Assembly (NCBI GenBank): GCA_026996165.1
Contig: JALWMP010000108.1
Coordinates: 1 to 43,322, forward strand
DNA: 43,322 nt
Direction: 5' to 3'
DNA from: Campylobacteraceae bacterium
GTDB taxonomy: Bacteria; Campylobacterota; Campylobacteria; Campylobacterales; Sulfurovaceae
Below, one piece after another: positions 32,459-43,322 of this stretch; positions within the stretch are counted from its first letter, which is position 1; each line of letters starts with the position of its first letter. The notes under the pieces are model-generated. The model had not been told where the DNA came from. It ran no database searches and worked only from the letters and a program-made list of their open reading frames with translations. Made by a program: the position numbers and the translations under genes.

Positions 32459-32639
32459 TTTTTACCTTCTTAAAGTATATAGTTTGAATTTTAACTAAAA
32501 TCCACTAATTTCAAATTAAAACACTTTTTTTAATTTGATTTTCAAAAAAATTTCTTATACTCTTAAAATAATTTTTAACAAAATATTACATACTTTTTGT
32601 TATTATTTCATATATGCAAATAAGCTGGAGATTCAAAAA

Positions 32640-33380
32640 ATGAAATATATTTTATCATTAATCATACTTATAATATTTAGTGGATGTAGTTTTAAAAACG
32701 ACTATGTACTATTCAATGAAGCTAAAATAAATCAAAACAGTGAAGTTTTACAATCTAAAAATATCAAATTTGAATATAAAATTCTTCCTCATGATAGGAT
32801 ATCTGTTATTGTTTATAAACACCCTGAGCTTAGTACAGTTAGCTCAGGTAGTCTTCAACAAGAGAGAGGTCTATTAGTTAACTCTAAAGGAGAGATTAGA
32901 TTACCACTTATCAAAAAAATTAAAATTGCAGGATTAACACAAACAGAGGCAGAAAATAAAATCTCTAACGCATTTAGAACATATTTAAAACATCCTGATA
33001 TTCAACTTGAGGTATTAAACAAAAGAGCCTATATTATAGGTGAGGTTAATAAACCAGGAGCTATTCCACTCGATAATGAGCGTATGACTCTACTACAGGC
33101 CATTGCATTAGGCGGAGACTTAACAGTTCAAGCTAATAGAAAATCTATCCTTGTATTTAAAAGTGGAGATAGTAAAAATGTACGCTCAAGATTAGTTGAT
33201 TTAACTAATAGAAACTCTCTAATGACAGCTAATTTAATGATAGAACCTAATGATATAATATATGTTATGCCAAATACAATGAAAACATTTAATAATAAAG
33301 TTGGAGAAATTAGCCCTATCTTTAACCTATTAGGTAGCATATTAAATCCATTTGTAACACTTAGAGTATTATCAGATTAA
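32640..33380 (+). CDS. Polysaccharide export lipoprotein (Wza/SLBB family)
   Basis: 246 residues. KYILSLIILIIFSGC gives a signal peptide with lipobox (IFSGC). A poly-export domain follows (EYKILPHDRISVIVYKHPELS and GEIRLPLIKKIKIAGLTQTEAE), then an SLBB domain (RAYIIGEVNKPGAIPLDNERMTLLQAI). It is an outer-membrane exit channel for capsular polysaccharide. I use ATG 32640, which has GGAG upstream and puts the signal peptide at the N-terminus; an upstream start at 32535 would bury it. It is shorter than Wza (379), lacking much of the C-terminal part. The Wzc gene begins 13 bases downstream. Confidence 0.9.
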   Translation: MKYILSLIILIIFSGCSFKNDYVLFNEAKINQNSEVLQSKNIKFEYKILPHDRISVIVYKHPELSTVSSGSLQQERGLLVNSKGEIRLPLIKKIKIAGLTQTEAENKISNAFRTYLKHPDIQLEVLNKRAYIIGEVNKPGAIPLDNERMTLLQAIALGGDLTVQANRKSILVFKSGDSKNVRSRLVDLTNRNSLMTANLMIEPNDIIYVMPNTMKTFNNKVGEISPIFNLLGSILNPFVTLRVLSD

Positions 33381-33393
33381 AAAAGAATATATA

Positions 33394-35733
33394 ATGCAAA
33401 AAAATTTATCACTTAAGAAACCTAAAAAAGAACTAAAATTTCAAGATATATTAAATATCTTGAAAGCATATAAATGGTCTATATTATTTATTGTATTCAT
33501 TACTACTTTATTAAGTTATATTTATGTCTACTTTCAAGCACCTATTTATAACTCTTATTCAATTATTAAAGTAAAAGCTAATAAAAATCAGCAATCAGAG
33601 GATGTAATTAATAGTACAACTGCTGCTGTTGATACCAAAGATGTTATTGAAGAGATAACTCTATTAAAGACATTTAAAATAAATAAGCGTTCTTTAGATA
33701 AAGTTAATTTTAATGTTGCCTATTTTGTAGATGAAGGCTATAGAAAAAAAGAGATATTTGGAGATTCTGTACCTATTGATATTACTAATATAAAAATTTT
33801 AGATTCAAATATTATTGGTAAGATGCTCACACTAACCCCTACAGAAAAAGGGTACAATATCTCTTATAGTATACCTTACATATCTAAATTAAAAAAGATG
33901 CTTTTTAAGAGTAATGAGTTTATTTTTCCTGTTTTAAAAAGTAGTAAGTATAACAATACAATTAAAAATCAATATTTTGAGTTAACAGTCAATAAAAAAT
34001 TTAATTTTTCAACCCCAATACACTTTATTTTACACGGTGACACAAGAGATATATTTGAAAATATGATTCATGATAGACTTGACATTGTTCAGTTAGAACA
34101 CGATACTTCACTTATTAAAATTAATTTTCAAGACACTATACCAAAGAGAGCAAATCTATATGTTGATGCCTTAACAAAAAGTTTTATTGACTATAGTATT
34201 GAGAGTAAAAATACACATAACAGTAAAACATTAAAGTTCATTACTAAAGAGTTAAAAAATATTGAAAAAGAGCTAAAAAGGTCTGAAGAGAGATTAGAAA
34301 AACAACAAATAGAAAAAAATATTGTAAAACCATCAGAAGAGGCAGCTCTTTATATTAAAAATTTAAGTAATATAGAGATTCAAATTTCAGAAAATAAACT
34401 TAAGAAAAAACTTATTTTAAATTTAATTAATTTTGTCCAGCACAATGATAATTTAGATGCTATTGCACCATCTGTCTCTAGACTAAAAGAGGACAACACC
34501 TTAGATTTAATTAAAAAATTACAAGAGCTTAAAGTTAAAGAGGCTGATTTAACACTAGAGTATACTGATGAGTTTCCTCAGCTACGTACAACTAGACAAC
34601 AAATATCAACTATAAGAAATCAAATTATATATAATCTTAAAAGCCTTAAAGAGAATATTGAGTATGAAAATACAAATTTGTTAAAACAGCAAAAAACTTA
34701 TGAAAATGATATGAAGAAACTCCCTTCAAAAGAGAGAGAATTAGTTAATATTAAAAGAAATTATGAAGTAAAATCAAAAATGTATGAATATCTACTTAAG
34801 AAACAAGCTGAAAATAAGATTATTCAATTAGCAACTTTTTCAAATTATCAAATAATTGATGATGCTTATAACTCAAATATTCCAATTAAACCAAAAAAAT
34901 CATTGATTTTACTTTTAAGTCTATTTCTTGGTCTACTAATTGGTTCTATTTTGGCTTTTATTAGACACAATAGAAATAACTATATTCAAAATAAAAATGA
35001 ATTAGAAAATCTTACCTCTTTACCTATTTATGGAAGTATTCCATATTTAAAACAAGATAAAAATAAAATTTATGTACACCAAGAGGTTAAGTCACCTTTC
35101 TCTGAAAGTTACAGAACATTAAGAACAAATTTACAATTTGTAAGTCAAAAAAATAGTGCTACAACTATCTTAATTACATCAACAGTAGCAGGAGAAGGAA
35201 AAAGTACAACTTCGGCTAACTTAGCAACCATACTAGAAATGGCTAAATACAAAACAGTTCTTGTAAATTTTGACTTAAGAAAACCTACTATTCATAAATT
35301 TTTTGATGTAGATAATGATATGGGAATTAGTAACTTTTTAGATGGAGAAGATATAACAGTAGATGATATTATTAAAACTACTGAATTTGCTAATTTAGAT
35401 ATTATTCCTTCTGGACCTATTCCTTCAGACCCATCTGAGCTTATTCTTTCAAAGAGACTACCTATACTTTTTAAAGAATTAAAAGAGAAATATGAATATA
35501 TTATTATTGACACAGCACCAATAGGTATAGTTAGTGATACTAAAACTCTTATGCAATATACAGATTTAAACTTAATAATTATTCGTGAAGATTATGCAAA
35601 AAAAGAGTTTATAGATACGTTAGAAGAGATAATAGAAAAACATAACTTTAGAAATATTGGACTTATTCTAAATGCCTCTAAAGCTAAAGATGGTGAATAT
35701 GGCTATGGATATAGTTATGACTATAAGAGTTGA
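33394..35733 (+). CDS. Wzc-like polysaccharide co-polymerase and bacterial tyrosine kinase
   Basis: 779 residues. An N-terminal Wzz chain-length domain has one transmembrane helix (about residues 27-47) and a long coiled coil (about 290-480). A second transmembrane helix (about 505-525) leads to a cytosolic BY-kinase domain. Walker A is AGEGKST around K603, Walker A' is VNFDLRKP, and Walker B is IIIDTAPIG. The C-terminus EYGYGYSYDYKS is the autophosphorylated tyrosine cluster. It controls polymer export and length and is dephosphorylated by a phosphatase, presumably the next gene's product. It is followed by its PHP partner with overlapping or near-contiguous reading frames. Confidence 0.95.
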   Translation: MQKNLSLKKPKKELKFQDILNILKAYKWSILFIVFITTLLSYIYVYFQAPIYNSYSIIKVKANKNQQSEDVINSTTAAVDTKDVIEEITLLKTFKINKRSLDKVNFNVAYFVDEGYRKKEIFGDSVPIDITNIKILDSNIIGKMLTLTPTEKGYNISYSIPYISKLKKMLFKSNEFIFPVLKSSKYNNTIKNQYFELTVNKKFNFSTPIHFILHGDTRDIFENMIHDRLDIVQLEHDTSLIKINFQDTIPKRANLYVDALTKSFIDYSIESKNTHNSKTLKFITKELKNIEKELKRSEERLEKQQIEKNIVKPSEEAALYIKNLSNIEIQISENKLKKKLILNLINFVQHNDNLDAIAPSVSRLKEDNTLDLIKKLQELKVKEADLTLEYTDEFPQLRTTRQQISTIRNQIIYNLKSLKENIEYENTNLLKQQKTYENDMKKLPSKERELVNIKRNYEVKSKMYEYLLKKQAENKIIQLATFSNYQIIDDAYNSNIPIKPKKSLILLLSLFLGLLIGSILAFIRHNRNNYIQNKNELENLTSLPIYGSIPYLKQDKNKIYVHQEVKSPFSESYRTLRTNLQFVSQKNSATTILITSTVAGEGKSTTSANLATILEMAKYKTVLVNFDLRKPTIHKFFDVDNDMGISNFLDGEDITVDDIIKTTEFANLDIIPSGPIPSDPSELILSKRLPILFKELKEKYEYIIIDTAPIGIVSDTKTLMQYTDLNLIIIREDYAKKEFIDTLEEIIEKHNFRNIGLILNASKAKDGEYGYGYSYDYKS

Positions 35734-35735
35734 TT

Positions 35736-36476
35736 ATGTTTTTTTCTTCTCTATTAAAAAAATCTAATCTAAAAGATAATAATCCCTTTAAGGTCGATAT
35801 TCACTCTCATCTACTTCCTAAAATAGATGATGGAGTTCAAAGCTTAAAAGAGTCTATTGACCTTATAAAAAAATTTAAACTTCTTGGATATACAAAACTA
35901 ATTACTACCCCTCATGTTATTAGTGACTTTTATCCTAATAATAGAGAAATTATTATAAATAAATTACATACTGTTCAAGATGCTTTAAAAGAGAATAATA
36001 TAGATATTTCTATTGAAGCAGGAGCAGAGTACTATCTAGATATGTCTTTTTTAGAACTTATTGAAGAGGGAAAAGTTATAACATTTATGAAACACTATGT
36101 CCTTTTTGAAACTTCATATAATGAAAAACCAATTATTTTAGAATATGTAATAAATAGATTACTTGAAAATGGTTATATTCCTGTTCTAGCACATCCAGAA
36201 CGATATAGATATTTACATAAAAATATTGAGAAGTATAAAAGATTAAAAGCACTAGGAGTACTTTTTCAAGTTAATGCAAAATCCCTTTATGACCATTCAA
36301 GAGTTGAATATAAAATTGCTCTTAAACTTATTGAATTAGGGTTAGTTGATTTTATAGGCAGTGATGCTCATCGAATGAGAGACATAAATAAATTAGAAAC
36401 TTTTTTAAAGAGTCGAACTTGTAAAAAAGTAATTAAACTTAATCATATTAAAAACAAGGATTTTAATGCAGTATAA
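35736..36476 (+). CDS. PHP-type protein-tyrosine phosphatase (CpsB/CapC/YwqE-like)
   Basis: 246 residues with a PHP metal-dependent hydrolase fold. VDIHSHLLPKIDDGVQS carries the metal-binding HxH, with ITTPHVISDFYPN, EAGAEYYLDM, VLAHPERYRYL and IGSDAHRM further on. This is the Gram-positive-style phosphatase that reverses BY-kinase phosphorylation, here paired with a Wzc protein of Gram-negative architecture. The start is ATG 35736, with AAGAG a few bases upstream. It overlaps the epimerase gene by 11 bases. Confidence 0.92.
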   Translation: MFFSSLLKKSNLKDNNPFKVDIHSHLLPKIDDGVQSLKESIDLIKKFKLLGYTKLITTPHVISDFYPNNREIIINKLHTVQDALKENNIDISIEAGAEYYLDMSFLELIEEGKVITFMKHYVLFETSYNEKPIILEYVINRLLENGYIPVLAHPERYRYLHKNIEKYKRLKALGVLFQVNAKSLYDHSRVEYKIALKLIELGLVDFIGSDAHRMRDINKLETFLKSRTCKKVIKLNHIKNKDFNAV

Positions 36477-37509
36477 CTATATTAGAGAACAGCTACTAAA
36501 AAATCAAAAAACTTGGTTAATTACAGGTGTAGCAGGATTTATAGGCTCTAATCTTGCAGAAGCACTCTTAAAACTTAATCAAAGAGTAATCGGTCTTGAT
36601 AATTTTTCAACAGGACATAAGCACAATTTAGAACAAATAAAAGAGTCAATAACAGACAAACAGTGGAAAAACTTTAATTTTCAAGAGGGAGACATTACCA
36701 ATTTTGAAACATGTCAAACTATAACTAAAGATGTAGATATTGTTCTACATCAAGCAGCATTAGGCTCTGTGCCTCGTTCAATAGATAATCCTATTTTAAC
36801 CAATCATAATAATGTTACAGGATTTCTCAATATGTTAACAGCAGCAAAAGATAATGGCATAAAACGATTTGTCTATGCCTCTTCATCTTCTGTTTATGGT
36901 GACTCTCAAGAACTTCCAAAAGTAGAAAAGCGTATAGGTAATCTTCTCTCTCCCTACGCTGTTACTAAATATGTTAATGAACTATATATGGGTGTCTTTC
37001 AAAAATGTTATGGAATGGAAGCCATTGGTTTACGCTATTTTAATGTTTTTGGAAAACGTCAAGATCCAAATGGAGCTTATGCAGCTGTAATGCCAAAGTG
37101 GATTTCACAGATACTTAATGGAGAAGATGTCTTTATTAATGGTGATGGAGAGACGAGTAGAGACTTTACCTATATTGACAATGTAGTTCAAGCAAATATC
37201 TTAGCTGGGACAACTACTAATGAAAAAGCATTTGGAGAGGCATTTAATACTGCTATAGGAGGAAGAGAGACACTTAATAATCTATATCAAGCCATTGTAA
37301 AAGGAGTAAAAGAGAATCTTCCAGAGCTAGAGATTAAGAAACCTATCTACAGAGATTTTAGAGCAGGTGATATTCGTCACTCTAATGCAAATATTGATAA
37401 AATCCAAAAACTCTTAGGCTATAAACCTACACATACATTAGAGAGTGGTCTAAAAGAGTCTATAGAGTGGTACATTCAAGACATTAAAGGGAGAAAAAAG
37501 AGTGAATAA
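36466..37509 (+). CDS. UDP-N-acetylglucosamine 4-epimerase (WbpP/TviC family)
   Basis: 347 residues of extended [21 protein letters not shown], the [15 protein letters not shown] block that is a WbpP signature, [16 protein letters not shown], catalytic [14 protein letters not shown] (YxxxK), and [18 protein letters not shown]. It interconverts UDP-GlcNAc and UDP-GalNAc, or the corresponding uronic acids, for capsule synthesis. It overlaps the 6-dehydrogenase gene by 8 bases. Confidence 0.93.
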
Positions 37510-38749
37510 CAAAATAGCAGTAATAGGGTTAGGTTATGTAGGATTACCTCTAGCTCATGCCTTTTCATCAAAATATAAGGTAGTGGGATTTGACATAGCC
37601 CAATGGCGAATAGATGAGTTACGCTCAGGAGTTGATAGAACACTAGAACTATCAACTCAACAAGTAAATGAAGCTATTGCCAATAATATGCAATTTACAA
37701 ATCAACTAGATGATATAGCTGATTGTAATATATATATTGTAACTGTACCAACACCCATAGATAAACATAAAAAACCTGATTTAACTCCTCTTATTAAAGC
37801 GAGTGAATCGATTGGTAAAGTTCTTAAAAAAGATGATATTGTTATCTATGAAAGTACCGTTTATCCAGGTGCTACAGAAGAGGAGTGTGTTCCTATTTTA
37901 GAGAAGTTCTCAGGCTTAAAATTTAATGAAGATTTCTTCTGTGGTTATAGCCCAGAGCGTATTAATCCTGGAGATAAAGAGCATACCGTTACTAAAATTT
38001 TAAAAGTGACATCAGGTTCAACACCAGAGATAGGTAAGAGAGTTGATGAACTATATGCCTCAATTATTACAGCAGGAACTCACTTAGCACCTACAATTAA
38101 AGTAGCAGAAGCTGCAAAGGTTATAGAAAACTCACAAAGAGACATTAACATTGCTTTTGTAAATGAACTCTCTATGATATTTAATAAACTAGGAATTGAC
38201 ACCCATGCTGTACTAGAAGCTGCAGGAACAAAATGGAACTTTTTACCATTTAAACCTGGTTTAGTAGGTGGACACTGCATCGGTGTTGACCCATACTACT
38301 TGACTCATAAAGCTCAAGAGGTAGGCTACAACCCAGAGATTATCTTAGCAGGTAGAAGGCTCAATGACAATATGGGTATCTATGTAGCAAATCAAGTAAT
38401 TAAGCTAATGATTAAAAAAGGTAAAAAGATAGAGGGTTCAAAAGTTTTAGTACTTGGTATTACATTTAAAGAGAACTGTCCAGACATTAGAAACTCTCGT
38501 GTTATTGATGTTATTCGTGAGCTACAAGAGTTTGGTTGTAACGTTGAAGTAAGTGACTACTGGGCAGATAAAAAAGATGTTCAAAGAGAGTATAATTTAG
38601 AACTAAAATCAGATACAAATATAGATGACTATGATGCTATAGTTCTTGCTGTCGCCCATGATAAATATAAAAATATGAAACTCAATAATAAAAATCAAGT
38701 TATTTTTGATATTAAGTCTATTTTAGAAAAAGCAGATGGAAGATTGTAA
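37502..38749 (+). CDS. UDP-N-acetyl-D-hexosamine 6-dehydrogenase (WbpO/TviB family)
   Basis: 415 residues of the UDP-glucose/GDP-mannose dehydrogenase family: [57 protein letters not shown] and [20 protein letters not shown]. The last contains the catalytic Cys. It oxidises UDP-GlcNAc or UDP-GalNAc to the uronic acid with two NAD+. With the adjacent WbpP-type epimerase this supplies UDP-GalNAcA. The start is GTG preceded by GGGAG. Together they suggest an acidic capsule or O-chain. Confidence 0.94.
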
Positions 38750-38754
38750 AAATA

Positions 38755-38785
38755 AAGTTCTAAGGTTTTATAGACTTTAGAACTT
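38755..38785. terminator. Bidirectional terminator between wbpO-like gene and GT4
   Basis: AAGTTCTAA (38755-38763) pairs with TTAGAACTT (38777-38785) in the gap between the two converging genes. The left side is A-rich and the right side T-rich. It therefore likely ends both transcripts. Confidence 0.65.
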
Positions 38786-38788
38786 AGA

Positions 38789-40012
38789 CTATTTCTCTTT
38801 ACTAGAAACTATATCTTTAATAATCTGAAGCATCTCTTGAGCTAACCTTTTTCTATCATATGCCTTTGCAAGTTCTTTACAGCCTTTTTGACAACTATTA
38901 TAGATATTTTTTTTATCTTTTAGTATTTTAAGTTTCAATAAAAAATCATCTTCATCTTCTGGTAAAAAACACAACCCTGCATTATATTTTTCAATAATCT
39001 TTTGTGCCTCTCCTTCTACTCCTAAAAGAGTTGGTTTTCCCATTGAAGATGCTTCAAAAATTTTTGAAGGGATTACCGTTTTAAAGTTCTCATTTCTCTT
39101 TAATGGAGCTAATGAAATATCACAGATAGAGAGATAATCAGGGACTTTATCTTTAGATATTGAATCTAAAAATGTTATATTGGTTAATTTTAGTTCATTT
39201 GCTAATTTAATAATTTCTTGTTTACTTGCACCATCTCCAACAAAAAGAAAGTGAATGCTACTATCTTTAATTTTTTTAATTGATTTAATAATAAAAGGTA
39301 AACTGTGTGCCATACCATGTGTTCCTATGTAACCAACAATAAACTTACCATTTAACTGTAATTCATCTATTATTTTTTGATTTTTAGGTCGTTCTCTAAA
39401 AAGTTTATTGTTAGAGCCATTTGTAATAACTGAAATTTTATCTGCTTTAATACCTCTAGCAATAAGATTTCGTTTAAAAGCCTCTGTAACAGCAATAACT
39501 TTAGTTGAATCTCTATATAAGCCTAACTCAATTTTCTCTAAAAAGTTAATAATATTCTCATACTTTATTGCACCTACGGTTCTTAAACTCTCAGGCCAAA
39601 TATCTCTTAACTCAAATATCCATGGTTTTCTTTTTAATTTAGATAAACTCCAACCTGTCCATGTAGTAAAAAATTGAGGAGATGTAGCAACAATAATATC
39701 AAATTTTTGAAAAACTCCAACAAGTAATGCGACTATAGCATAACTTAAATAATCAAAAACTCGTTTAAAAAAACCTCTGTTTGCAGTCATATACGTCCAA
39801 ATACGAATAACTTCAATTCCATCTATCTGCTCTTTTTGATAAAATTTATTTTTATATCCTTTATACAAGTGTCCATGTGGAAAATTTGGATTACATGTAA
39901 TAACTGTTACATCTACTCCTTTAGAAATCCATTCTAAACAATGTTCATAAGTTCTAGTTGCAGGGGCATTCACTTCTGGTGGAAAATTATCTGTTAAAAA
40001 TAATATTTTCAT
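38789..40012 (-). CDS. GT4 glycosyltransferase (WbuB/WcaI-like)
   Basis: 407 residues of GT-B fold. The N-terminus ILFLTDNFPPEVNAPATRTYEH is the WbuB-type acceptor domain, with TVITCNPNFPHG. VGYIGTHGMAHSLPFIIKSIK and FVGDGASKQEII follow. IPSKIFEASSMGKPTLLGV is the nucleotide-binding segment that includes the retaining EX7E-type region. It likely adds an amino sugar during capsule or O-chain repeat assembly. It lies opposite to the rest of the capsule module, converging on the dehydrogenase gene, and diverges from the large secreted protein gene. Confidence 0.88.
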   Translation of the reverse strand: MKILFLTDNFPPEVNAPATRTYEHCLEWISKGVDVTVITCNPNFPHGHLYKGYKNKFYQKEQIDGIEVIRIWTYMTANRGFFKRVFDYLSYAIVALLVGVFQKFDIIVATSPQFFTTWTGWSLSKLKRKPWIFELRDIWPESLRTVGAIKYENIINFLEKIELGLYRDSTKVIAVTEAFKRNLIARGIKADKISVITNGSNNKLFRERPKNQKIIDELQLNGKFIVGYIGTHGMAHSLPFIIKSIKKIKDSSIHFLFVGDGASKQEIIKLANELKLTNITFLDSISKDKVPDYLSICDISLAPLKRNENFKTVIPSKIFEASSMGKPTLLGVEGEAQKIIEKYNAGLCFLPEDEDDFLLKLKILKDKKNIYNSCQKGCKELAKAYDRKRLAQEMLQIIKDIVSSKEK

Positions 40013-40193: not shown

Positions 40194-43100
40194 ATGTCTA
40201 TAAAAAATTATATTTTTTTTAAAATTTTATTCTTCTTTCTATTTTCTATTCAAATGCTATTTGCAAATATAAGTGGGGTTGTTTTTCAAGATTTACCAGT
40301 CAATGGTTCAATATTAAATCAATATGGAGTAAAGGATAGCAATGAAATAGGTATCAAAGGTATCAAAGTAACTGCTTTTCCATCTGGATTAACTACAATT
40401 ACAGATGATAATGGTACTTGGGAACTCAATACTACTCAAAATTCAAGAATTGAGTTTTCAAATTTCCCATCTTATTTAAAAGAGAGTCCTAGTGCTAATA
40501 TCTATAACAGTTCTGTCCAATTTGTTCATAATGGTCAGACTAACATTACATTTGGTCTACATAATCCTGCTGATTTCTCAAATACTACAAACCCTAAATA
40601 TGTATCTAATTTACAACAAAATGGTACACATCTAACAAGTGATTTACAAAACTTACAGACAGTTCATTATAATGCCAATGGACTTAATGCTGACTATTCA
40701 ACACATACAGGAGTACAAGGGATAGGAGAAGTTCCACAAGATTCAATCTTAATGAATAGCTTAGGTTCGGTATGGGCTAAAGCATATCAAAAAAATAAAA
40801 AAAGACTTTTTGTTGCAAGTATGCTTCAACGTCATGTTGGTTTTGCTAATACTCCATCTGATATATACGTTATTGACTACTCTTCAGGTAGTGCTGATAA
40901 CCTTCTTGGGAAATTTCAACTACAAGGAAGAGTACCAGATAATGGTGGAGCAGTAATTGATGTAGGAGATGTTAATCGTACAGTTGGCAATAGAGACTAT
41001 GAGTTATATGATGACCCAACACAACCAAATATTGACCTTGATGCTTATGCTAAAGTAGGTAAAATATCTTATGGGGGTATGGATATTGACTATACAACAA
41101 ATACCCTATGGTTAATTAATCTTAATCAAAAAGGAATTATTTCTGTTGATATTTCAGGAGATGTTGACTCTCTTAGTACAGCTACAACTAATCAATACCT
41201 TATTGAATCTCTACCAAATGCACCAACTTGCAACAATGGAGAACTTAGACCTTGGGCATTAAAAATTCATGAGGGCAAGGGATATATTGGAACTATATGT
41301 GATGCTTCAACTTCTCACTCTACAAATGATTTATCAGCTGCTATTTTATCTTTTGATTTATCTAATCCATCATTAGGTTTTCAAATAGTACAAAATTTTC
41401 CACTAAATTATGCTCGTCAAGTCAAAAATTGGGAAGCATGGGAAGATAGTTACTTTGACCCTACCCCTCCTAAAACTAAATATGGAGTTATCTATAGTGA
41501 ACCAATTTTAAGTGATATTGAATTTGATAAAAACAATAATATGTATATTGCATTTTTTGACCGATATGCAACAAAATTAGGTACAGATAACTACCGTGCT
41601 ATATCTGGTACTACAGAGTTTGAAGGCTCTTACGAATATGGAGAGATTTTAAAATTTTGTAACAATAATGGTAATTATGAAAGAGAAGGTACAGGAAATT
41701 GTCTTACTACTAACTATTCAGACTTGGGTATTTCAGAATTTTTTAATGACCAAGCAGGAGACAGGAATAGAGAAGGCTCTCTTGGAGCATTAGCTATTCT
41801 TAAAGGAAGTAACCATTTACTTCTTTCTACCATAGACCCACATCCCGAATCAACTACAGGAAACAATATTAATACCTATTGGTATACACAAGGAACACAT
41901 ACTTTAAATTTAAAAACTGGTTCTATTGATAATTGGTACTCTTTTGCTTATACAAAAGGAGATGGTTTAAATGAAAAAGCTAATGGTTTAGGTGATATAG
42001 AGCTTATTACCGATGCAGCACCTATTGAGATAGGAGATAGAGTGTGGAATGATGCTAATGCAAATGGTATTCAAGATGCAGAAGAGAGTACAATTTCAGG
42101 TGTAACTGTAAATTTAGTCTGTGCGGGTACAACTGTTGCTAATGCAATAACAGACTCGAATGGAACTTACCTCTTCTCAAATGATACAGAAGGAGTATCA
42201 ACCAATAGTCAAAAATTTAATATTTCACAACTTGTAGAAAACAATGAAAATAACTGTAGTATTGTTATTCCAAATGTACAAGGAGTCAATCAACAAAATG
42301 CTCTCAATAATTATCAACTAACATCTCCTCTCAAAGGAGAAGGTATTAACAAAACTCTAAATGATAGTAATGCTTATCTAAATGAAAATAATGCAACTAT
42401 TACAATTTCTCCAAATGATATTCCTATTGCAGGAAACAATAATCATAGCTTTGATATTGGGTTTAAAAAATTATCTAATGTACATACAAACCATAATCCT
42501 AATCCAAACCATAGTACAAATATAAACCATAGAATAAATATAAATACATCTACACTAGTAACAAATCTAATTTTAGGAGACTATCTTTGGTTAGATAGTA
42601 ACCATAATGGAGTTCAAGATAGTAATGAATCTGGTATCAATGGGGTACATGTAAATCTATATAATAATGCTGAGTGTTCAGGAGCTACTCTTAGCTCAAC
42701 AGATACAGCTAATGGTGGAACACCTGCACGAGATGGATTCTATCAATTCAATAATCTTAGTGCAGGAGACTACTGTATTGAGTTTATTCTTGATGACAAT
42801 ATGACAGTCTCTCCTAATAGTGATGCAGATAGCTCTAACAACTCTGATGCTAATGCCTCTGGATTTATTACCAATATTCACCTTACAGCTAATGATTTAG
42901 ATGAAGATATTGGTATCTACCCTACACCAATAACAAATCTAATTTTAGGAGACTATCTTTGGTTAGATAGTAACCATAATGGAGTTCAAGATAGTAATGA
43001 ATCTGGTATCAATGGGGTACATGTAAATCTATATAATAGTGCTGAGTGTTCAGGAGCTACTCTTAGCTCAACAGATACAGCTAATGGTGGAACACCTGCA

Positions 43101-43322
43101 AGAGATGGATTCTACCAATTTAATAATCTTAGTGTAGGAGACTACTGTATTGAGTTTGTTCTTGATGACAATATGACAGTCTCTCCTAATAGTGGTGCAG
43201 ATAGCTCTAACAACTCTGATGCTAATGCCTCTGGATTTATTACCAATATTCACCTTACAGCTAATGATTTAGATGAAGATATTGGTATCTACCCTACACC
43301 AATAACAAATCTAATTTTAGGA
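40194..43322 (+). CDS. Very large secreted protein with SdrD B-like repeats (3' end outside window)
   Basis: An uninterrupted frame of 1043 codons runs to the right edge. MSIKNYIFFKILFFFLFSIQ and the following MLFA form a signal peptide cleaved near residue 24. A first prealbumin-like domain (about 25-120, SGVVFQDLPVNG..KGIKVTAF) follows. A long middle region (about 170-600) is rich in VIDYSSGS, LWLINLNQKGIISVDIS-like strands and resembles a beta-propeller. A SdrD B-like domain starts near residue 612 (IGDRVWNDANANGIQDAEES). Then come an Asn/His-rich linker (about 761-789) and 124-residue repeats beginning LGDYLWLDSNHNGVQDSNES with Asp-rich calcium-binding-like loops. It is probably a cell-surface or secreted adhesin. 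Its sorting signal must be further right. Confidence 0.88.
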   Translation, partial: MSIKNYIFFKILFFFLFSIQMLFANISGVVFQDLPVNGSILNQYGVKDSNEIGIKGIKVTAFPSGLTTITDDNGTWELNTTQNSRIEFSNFPSYLKESPSANIYNSSVQFVHNGQTNITFGLHNPADFSNTTNPKYVSNLQQNGTHLTSDLQNLQTVHYNANGLNADYSTHTGVQGIGEVPQDSILMNSLGSVWAKAYQKNKKRLFVASMLQRHVGFANTPSDIYVIDYSSGSADNLLGKFQLQGRVPDNGGAVIDVGDVNRTVGNRDYELYDDPTQPNIDLDAYAKVGKISYGGMDIDYTTNTLWLINLNQKGIISVDISGDVDSLSTATTNQYLIESLPNAPTCNNGELRPWALKIHEGKGYIGTICDASTSHSTNDLSAAILSFDLSNPSLGFQIVQNFPLNYARQVKNWEAWEDSYFDPTPPKTKYGVIYSEPILSDIEFDKNNNMYIAFFDRYATKLGTDNYRAISGTTEFEGSYEYGEILKFCNNNGNYEREGTGNCLTTNYSDLGISEFFNDQAGDRNREGSLGALAILKGSNHLLLSTIDPHPESTTGNNINTYWYTQGTHTLNLKTGSIDNWYSFAYTKGDGLNEKANGLGDIELITDAAPIEIGDRVWNDANANGIQDAEESTISGVTVNLVCAGTTVANAITDSNGTYLFSNDTEGVSTNSQKFNISQLVENNENNCSIVIPNVQGVNQQNALNNYQLTSPLKGEGINKTLNDSNAYLNENNATITISPNDIPIAGNNNHSFDIGFKKLSNVHTNHNPNPNHSTNINHRININTSTLVTNLILGDYLWLDSNHNGVQDSNESGINGVHVNLYNNAECSGATLSSTDTANGGTPARDGFYQFNNLSAGDYCIEFILDDNMTVSPNSDADSSNNSDANASGFITNIHLTANDLDEDIGIYPTPITNLILGDYLWLDSNHNGVQDSNESGINGVHVNLYNSAECSGATLSSTDTANGGTPARDGFYQFNNLSVGDYCIEFVLDDNMTVSPNSGADSSNNSDANASGFITNIHLTANDLDEDIGIYPTPITNLILG
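42561..43322 (+). repeat. Tandem 372-bp coding repeats (2 full units, third started)
   Basis: Unit A is 42561-42932 and unit B 42933-43304, and unit C begins at 43305 and is cut by the window edge. By eye, units A and B differ at only seven of 372 positions, four of them silent or conservative in frame. Each unit encodes one 124-residue SdrD B-like domain. Near-identity at the DNA level points to recent duplication or ongoing homogenisation. Confidence 0.95.

Follow-up and report, generated by a model that had tools for sequence, protein, structure and literature searches.

The window analysed here is a stretch of 43,322 nucleotides that makes up nearly all of contig JALWMP010000108.1 (C108 in our numbering; assembly GCA_026996165.1), from a Campylobacteraceae bacterium, a marine sulfur bacterium placed by GTDB in the Sulfurovaceae. 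At its right edge lies the visible part of a gene for a secreted surface protein built of SdrD_B repeats, whose reading frame opens at position 40194 with codons for a hydrophobic signal sequence and continues beyond the window. The C-terminal tail of this protein, which is encoded behind an assembly gap, is probably one half of a new pair of sorting signal and exosortase that in the Sulfurovaceae is tied genomically to type II secretion, and this is a larger result than the repeat for which the gene was first singled out. The repeat itself is real, of modest interest and, because of the gap, unfinished.

The focal gene and its repeat array

The features of the gene and its neighbourhood, in base pairs (bp) of the window, are as follows.

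40194..43322, + strand: visible part of the gene for the secreted SdrD_B-repeat surface protein; the gene crosses a gap of 100 N and has its stop at contig position 43724
40194..40265, + strand: likely N-terminal signal peptide of 24 codons, judged by eye
40266..42026, + strand: unique N-terminal region, about residues 25-611 (homologue search, solved-structure search)
42027..42470, + strand: first SdrD_B-like domain, divergent (Pfam, DNA alignment; borders by eye)
42484..42544, + strand: 18-bp short tandem repeat encoding an Asn/His-rich linker (Tandem Repeats Finder, TRF)
42550..42921, + strand: 372-bp unit 1, an SdrD_B domain (TRF, unit comparison)
42922..43293, + strand: 372-bp unit 2, an SdrD_B domain, 363/372 identical to unit 1
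43294..43322, + strand: start of unit 3, matching unit 2 at 29/29 bases; the 100-N assembly gap begins immediately after it
32535..38749, + strand: exopolysaccharide export and sugar-nucleotide genes (Wza-like, Wzc-like, Cps4B-like, TviC-like, TviB-like), with TIGR01007 and TIGR03026 above cut-off and the equivalog matches below theirs

The original prediction was of a giant signal-peptide protein carrying a fast-evolving array of 372-bp units. By eye the start of the frame does look like a signal peptide, but "giant" is too strong a word, as the protein has 1,176 residues with the gap taken as written and would by arithmetic have 1,213 if the array held exactly three units. The tandem repeat is confirmed by TRF, which reports a period of 372, 2.1 copies and 97% matches over 42550-43322, that is, two full units and the start of a third. 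The seven differing positions counted earlier are right for the part of the unit outside its first nine bases; over the whole unit nine of the 372 positions differ (97.6% identity), two of them within those first nine bases, and six of the nine alter the amino acid. The earlier SdrD-like domain is divergent, as had been said: a gap-tolerant alignment, which inflates low values, gives it 74-78% DNA identity to the tandem units. The assignment to SdrD_B also holds, since the Pfam model (PF17210) matches the protein in four stretches with an expect value (E) of 6.7e-63 and 210.3 bits against a gathering score of 29.7. Asp-rich DxNxNGxxDxxE loops are present in the sequence and, to judge by the SdrD_B family, may plausibly bind calcium.

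The array was expected to extend past the window, and reading to the right bears this out. Contig C108 is 43,863 bp long and positions 43323-43422 are the 100 N. Beyond them, 43423-43552 aligns to unit positions 241-370 with 129 of 130 bases identical to unit 2, and this remnant is followed by the C-terminal tail and the stop. As unit 3 breaks off after 29 bases and the sequence resumes at unit position 241, the missing stretch must be 211 + 372k bases, and the reading frame agrees across the gap because 211 and 100 both leave a remainder of 1 on division by 3. The array thus has 3 + k units, and the present assembly cannot settle k.

Recent duplication or homogenisation of the array, as originally proposed, is supported by comparison with other repeats. 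In a second SdrD_B gene of the same genome (on contig C25; 1,879 residues) there are seven SdrD-like motif domains, whose pairwise DNA identity is at most 76.5%. Among relatives, near-identical neighbouring repeats are found in L044 (top three pairs 97.2-97.5%), L037 (92.9%), L052 (87.4%) and L034 (86.7%), while the other relatives with a value have best pairs of 70-82%, so that most relatives are without near-identical tandems. The number of SdrD-like motifs in homologues of at least 50% identity that end in a stop ranges from 1 (L035) to 8 (L038), in a whole-genome collection with one genome per species. The contigs of L010, L013 and L044 break off within SdrD_B domains, which together with the near-identical neighbours fits repeated local duplication or conversion. 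Such breaks, and the gap inside the focal repeat, could also be taken to mean that the near-identity is an artefact of assembling a short-read bin. However, a false duplication would as a rule give identical copies, whereas nine positions separate the two full units, and a single contig runs through both of them with distinct flanking sequence. Real long repeats, moreover, give just such gaps and contig ends with short reads; we therefore consider an artefact very improbable. The repeat would then mark a gene whose length may change quickly.

Relatives of residues 1-740 were found at E ≤ 1e-20 in 36 of 150 genomes of the same family, the set used throughout. A sequence search gave no relative of the N-terminal region among solved structures, and a single-sequence structure model of it was unusable (predicted local distance difference test, pLDDT, 30) and was not used. 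The gene is directly preceded by the exopolysaccharide export and sugar-nucleotide genes together with a glycosyltransferase gene (window 32535-40012).

A C-terminal tail and a small exosortase

The tail behind the gap is a suffix common to many homologues and usually consists of a CxC motif, a short Ser-containing stretch, a membrane helix and an R/K-K/R-E end. A profile built from 28 tails picked for CxC, with the spurious L022 and the near-duplicate L018 left out, matched 93 of the 150 genomes at E ≤ 0.01 (source genomes of the profile rows included). The match coincided with the end of the frame in 49 of 49 rows, a number that includes rows sharing a gene and rows used to build the profile, and in a further 21 of 21. 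Frames bearing the tail range from 35 to 7,099 residues, the shortest being cut by contig ends, and the six carriers scanned have among them SdrD_B, LamG, DUF11, CshA and Big_9 domains above cut-off. A signal-peptide-like start was seen by eye in 12 of the 13 carriers with a readable start, out of 21. In 73 of 75 distinct tails a basic residue is followed by Glu directly or one residue on; one ends basic-Asp, and in one, cut short by the extraction window, the charged end is not readable. CxC was withdrawn as the tail-defining feature, since the profile rows had been selected for it and other tails are without it. What is found is a tripartite suffix on diverse proteins with, one carrier apart, signal peptides by eye.

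No NCBIfam model (release 20.0) reached its cut-off in 31 tails, the nearest being LPXTG_anchor at 14.1 against 15.9; for seven further profile tails the results are known as E-values only. Pfam gave weak matches in the 28 tails, the best of sorting type being Gram_pos_anchor at E 0.0037 in two of them. By these libraries and the literature searched, the focal tail appears to be an undescribed sorting tag.

The focal genome has three tail matches at E ≤ 0.01, one each in the focal gene, the second SdrD_B gene on C25 and a frame of 91 codons on contig C159 (L244:1324-1596). The last encodes little beyond a signal peptide and a Cys-less tail and is a possible minimal substrate. In one single-contig genome (L192; G020:C1:312001-332000) three tail-bearing frames of 1,898, 2,230 and 178 residues, with nearly identical tails, follow one another ahead of the exosortase gene. 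The focal protein has a relative in G108 (L039:4593-13319) that ends in a Peptidase_C25 domain and not the tail, and that genome has neither an enzyme nor a tail match.

The candidate partner enzyme is a small exosortase. Pfam PF09721 finds an exosortase of about 165 residues in 42 of the 150 genomes, 40 of them over cut-off, though not the one of the focal genome. A profile made from 20 of 28 sequences (L143-L145 had failed the motif filter and L144 was restored by eye) matched 83 of the 150 genomes, the focal genome included (C55:5107-5652). The enzymes have about 160-180 residues, and Cys70, Arg111 and His130 are invariant in 24 aligned rows, with the Cys, Arg and His also kept in the 20-row alignment; passages of PMC1569441 propose Cys, Arg and His as the catalytic residues of the exosortase family. 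The focal enzyme scores 43.2 bits on the exosortase family model TIGR04178 (cut-off 23), while all named subfamilies stay below cut-off, with XrtH (TIGR04177) at 49.4 against 86, XrtX (NF046081) at 46.3 against 170 and the rest lower, and six relatives of the enzyme are likewise under every named-subfamily cut-off. Its structure model is confident (pLDDT 88.6), and it gave no match in the PDB at E ≤ 0.001, nor did its sequence match any solved structure. In the literature searched, as titles and the starts of abstracts, nothing dealt with an exosortase of Sulfurovum or the Campylobacterota, or with one inside a type II operon; PMC12288469, the single paper to contain both terms, concerns a planctomycete.

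Three genomes of the focal genus have two adjacent exosortase copies beside the type II operon (L208:7388-8536 in G097, L209:3857-5371 in G123 and G121:C229:7970-9024), and in G123 one of the two shows a stop within the match. Another genome has a broken copy (L210; G087:C192) and is without any tail match.

The tail and the enzyme occur together. Across the 150 genomes 72 have both, 21 the tail only, 11 the enzyme only and 46 neither (odds ratio, OR, 14; Fisher p 2e-12). With tails at E ≤ 1e-4, a cut-off picked after the table was seen and which drops seven genomes, the counts are 72, 14, 11 and 53 (OR 25). Stratified by genus, the association has an OR of 7.1 (p 1.6e-5), or 15 (p 1e-8) at the stricter cut-off, and most of the signal is due to g4 and g10. 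In the order, represented by 248 genomes that partly overlap the family set, 22 have the enzyme and 11 the tail at E ≤ 1e-4. Every tail genome is among the 22, compared with 11 of the 237 without such a tail, and just one tail genome comes from outside the family. Nine of the 14 genomes that have a strong tail but lack the enzyme are missing the relevant stretch of assembly: G057, G088 and G105 have no gspD over the family cut-off, and in G016, G075, G085, G113, G127 and G141 the contig ends before the site where relatives carry the enzyme. An assembly gap was also considered for G109 and dropped, as other genes follow gspE there; in G080, where the sequence breaks off 614 bases beyond gspE and no pseudopilin gene is seen, the absence may yet be one of assembly. 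With exceptions, the tail is thus co-distributed with one membrane protease family. When all 86 enzyme places were compared with the 155 listed tail places, which cover 80 of the 93 tail genomes, the two genes lay within 10 kilobases (kb) in at least six of the 83 enzyme genomes among the matches listed. The distance is 675 bp in G004, 711 bp in G020 and 740 bp in G124; the other three genomes are G104, G122 and G144.

The enzymes of two comparable systems do not follow this distribution. A Cys-type signal cut by an Rce1-like (CPBP) protease in the style of MYXO-CTERM would agree with the CxC of most tails, as the MYXO-CTERM motif contains Cys in the passages of PMC11980579, and the focal genome has one CPBP gene. 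CPBP genes occur, however, in 44 of the 150 genomes, 30 of the 93 with a tail and 14 of the 57 others (Fisher p 0.36; genus-stratified OR 1.1, p 1.0), and some tails do without CxC, which makes this explanation extremely unlikely. Much the same can be said of processing by a rhombosortase-like rhomboid in the style of GlyGly-CTERM. Rhomboids are present in 101 of the 150 genomes and their unstratified association with the tail is weak (p 0.07; 0.04 for tails at E ≤ 1e-4), but it disappears when stratified by genus (p 0.95 and 0.50, respectively). They occur mostly as one copy per genome, like a housekeeping rhomboid, and GG_III-CTERM matched one tail under its cut-off (15.1 against 22 bits); we give a rhomboid very little credence.

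Linkage to type II secretion and a proposed route

In the focal genome the enzyme gene stands between a pseudopilin gene and a putative dapF (our own reading), directly behind gspE, gspD and gspC. Among these type II genes the NCBIfam cut-offs are passed by gspD and gspG and missed by gspE (553.7 against 630) and gspC (95.1 against 101.6), and gspJ, gspK, gspL, gspM and gspN were assigned from gene order with at most a prepilin-motif match. In 45 of the 83 enzyme genomes, the focal genome included, no more than 10 kb separates the enzyme gene from gspD. Ten kb to each side amounts to some 1% of a 2-Mb genome; since gene order is inherited, the 45 cases cannot be counted as independent. In 44 of them the two genes share a strand and in one they are opposed. 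Among the same-strand cases the enzyme is upstream at about 5-6 kb in 23 and downstream at 2.5-3.1 kb in 21, and its presence on either side suggests that the linkage arose, or was retained, on more than one occasion. Four genomes of the focal genus (G091:C57, G097:C93, G121:C304, G127:C110) have a further GspD-like secretin, which scores below cut-off (E 1e-87 to 3e-91).

Taken together, a sorting-signal/exosortase pair coupled to type II secretion would seem the best reading of these data, and a reasonably likely one. Several observations weigh against it. The enzyme is not near gspD in 38 of the 83 genomes (on another contig in 35, far off on the same contig in three), and GspD-type secretins, present in 147 of the 150 genomes (107 over cut-off), are far more widespread than the tail. 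CxC is found in 61 of the 75 distinct tails, a number that includes the 28 selected for it; 11 have one Cys and three have none, and its absence from 14 of 75 argues against strict lipidation. One carrier with a readable start (L266) has no signal peptide by eye. Five genomes (G045, G065, G080, G109, G135) have the tail at E ≤ 1e-4 and no enzyme match, which missing assembly does not account for, 11 of the same family have the enzyme and no tail match, and within the focal genus there is no association because 33 of its 34 members have the tail. Outside the family only one of 11 genomes with a relative of the enzyme has a tail match; in these genomes (family f18 and others of the order) the substrates may bear a different tag.

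An alternative is that the tail is an ordinary, uncut C-terminal membrane anchor, that the exosortase acts elsewhere and that the two co-occur through shared ancestry. The association is indeed weaker after stratification by genus and has its unexplained exceptions. On the other hand, sorting signals are typically recognised by just such a suffix of motif, helix and charged end shared among different proteins, all 11 tail genomes in the order have the enzyme, and in at least six genomes, among the matches listed, enzyme and tail genes are close neighbours. We consider an uncut anchor unlikely.

If the tail is instead a sorting signal cut by the exosortase, the following route can be proposed. 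The surface protein, composed of a signal peptide, the unique N-terminal region, an SdrD_B stalk whose last three or more domains would be the recently duplicated array, and the C-terminal sorting signal, would be exported by Sec via its signal peptide. The tail helix would then retain it in the inner membrane with the R/K-K/R-E end in the cytoplasm. The small exosortase (C55:5107-5652) would cut the tail and probably transfer the protein to a new anchor; action as a transpeptidase is suggested for an exosortase in passages of PMC11980579. The type II system would next carry the protein across the outer membrane to the cell surface. The model for this step is provided by MYXO-CTERM and GlyGly-CTERM proteins, which according to the same passages need type II secretion. 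As for CxC, the candidate roles are lipid attachment, a disulfide or recognition only. What the data show directly are the parts of the gene, where the tail lies and how widely it is spread, its co-occurrence with the exosortase and the linkage of the exosortase gene to the type II operon; the cleavage, the anchoring, the type II route and any role of the cysteines we infer.

More tentatively, and with somewhat more doubt than belief, one may suppose that a dedicated Sulfurovaceae exosortase is a working accessory of type II secretion. Its task would be to trim and re-anchor C-terminal tags of a new, mostly Cys-containing class, which would keep long repeat adhesins on display and prevent their release. 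Prior work, in the passages seen, places exosortases with exopolysaccharide loci and assigns type II-dependent display to enzymes of the rhomboid and CPBP kinds. If CxC were lipidated, an exosortase would here be serving a Cys-type signal in place of an Rce1-like protease. The linkage of exosortase and type II operon offers a testable account of how folded, membrane-tailed proteins may exit Campylobacterota cells, and the tails would pick out surface proteins of vent and seep bacteria.

Comparison with known sorting systems

The staphylococcal proteins SdrC and SdrD share SdrD_B domains (PF17210) with the focal protein, which nevertheless scores 120 bits on the model of the MSCRAMM adhesin SdrD (NF012181) against a cut-off of 2500. 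The staphylococcal type of anchoring also differs, as the 31 tails scanned are without an LPXTG_anchor match above cut-off and a sortase was found in none of the 150 genomes.

The focal enzyme belongs with the exosortase/archaeosortase family, passing TIGR04178 and keeping the invariant Cys, Arg and His, while by its small size and its scores it stands apart from the named exosortases, XrtH and XrtX being the nearest. Homologues of epsH sit among exopolysaccharide genes, according to the passages seen of PMC1569441, whereas the focal type of enzyme is often beside type II secretion genes. In PEP-CTERM, described in the same passages, a motif, a helix and a charged end are likewise paired with an exosortase, and the focal gene itself adjoins exopolysaccharide genes; the tails described here are, however, without the Pro-Glu-Pro motif, no PEP-CTERM model is among their matches and their charged end has a conserved Glu.

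MYXO-CTERM has in common with the focal tail a Cys-containing motif, a membrane helix and surface proteins as its carriers, and in the passages of PMC11980579 it depends on type II secretion. The enzyme there, myxosortase, is a CPBP protease, while the focal tail tracks an exosortase and not CPBP, by association only. GlyGly-CTERM is similarly a tripartite C-terminal signal whose genomes generally have type II secretion and whose enzyme and target are sometimes adjacent, as set out in passages of PMC3237569. Its enzyme is a rhomboid, and by those passages there is nothing to suggest that rhombosortase defines a particular subclass of type II system, whereas the exosortase described here lies near gspD in over half of the genomes that carry it.

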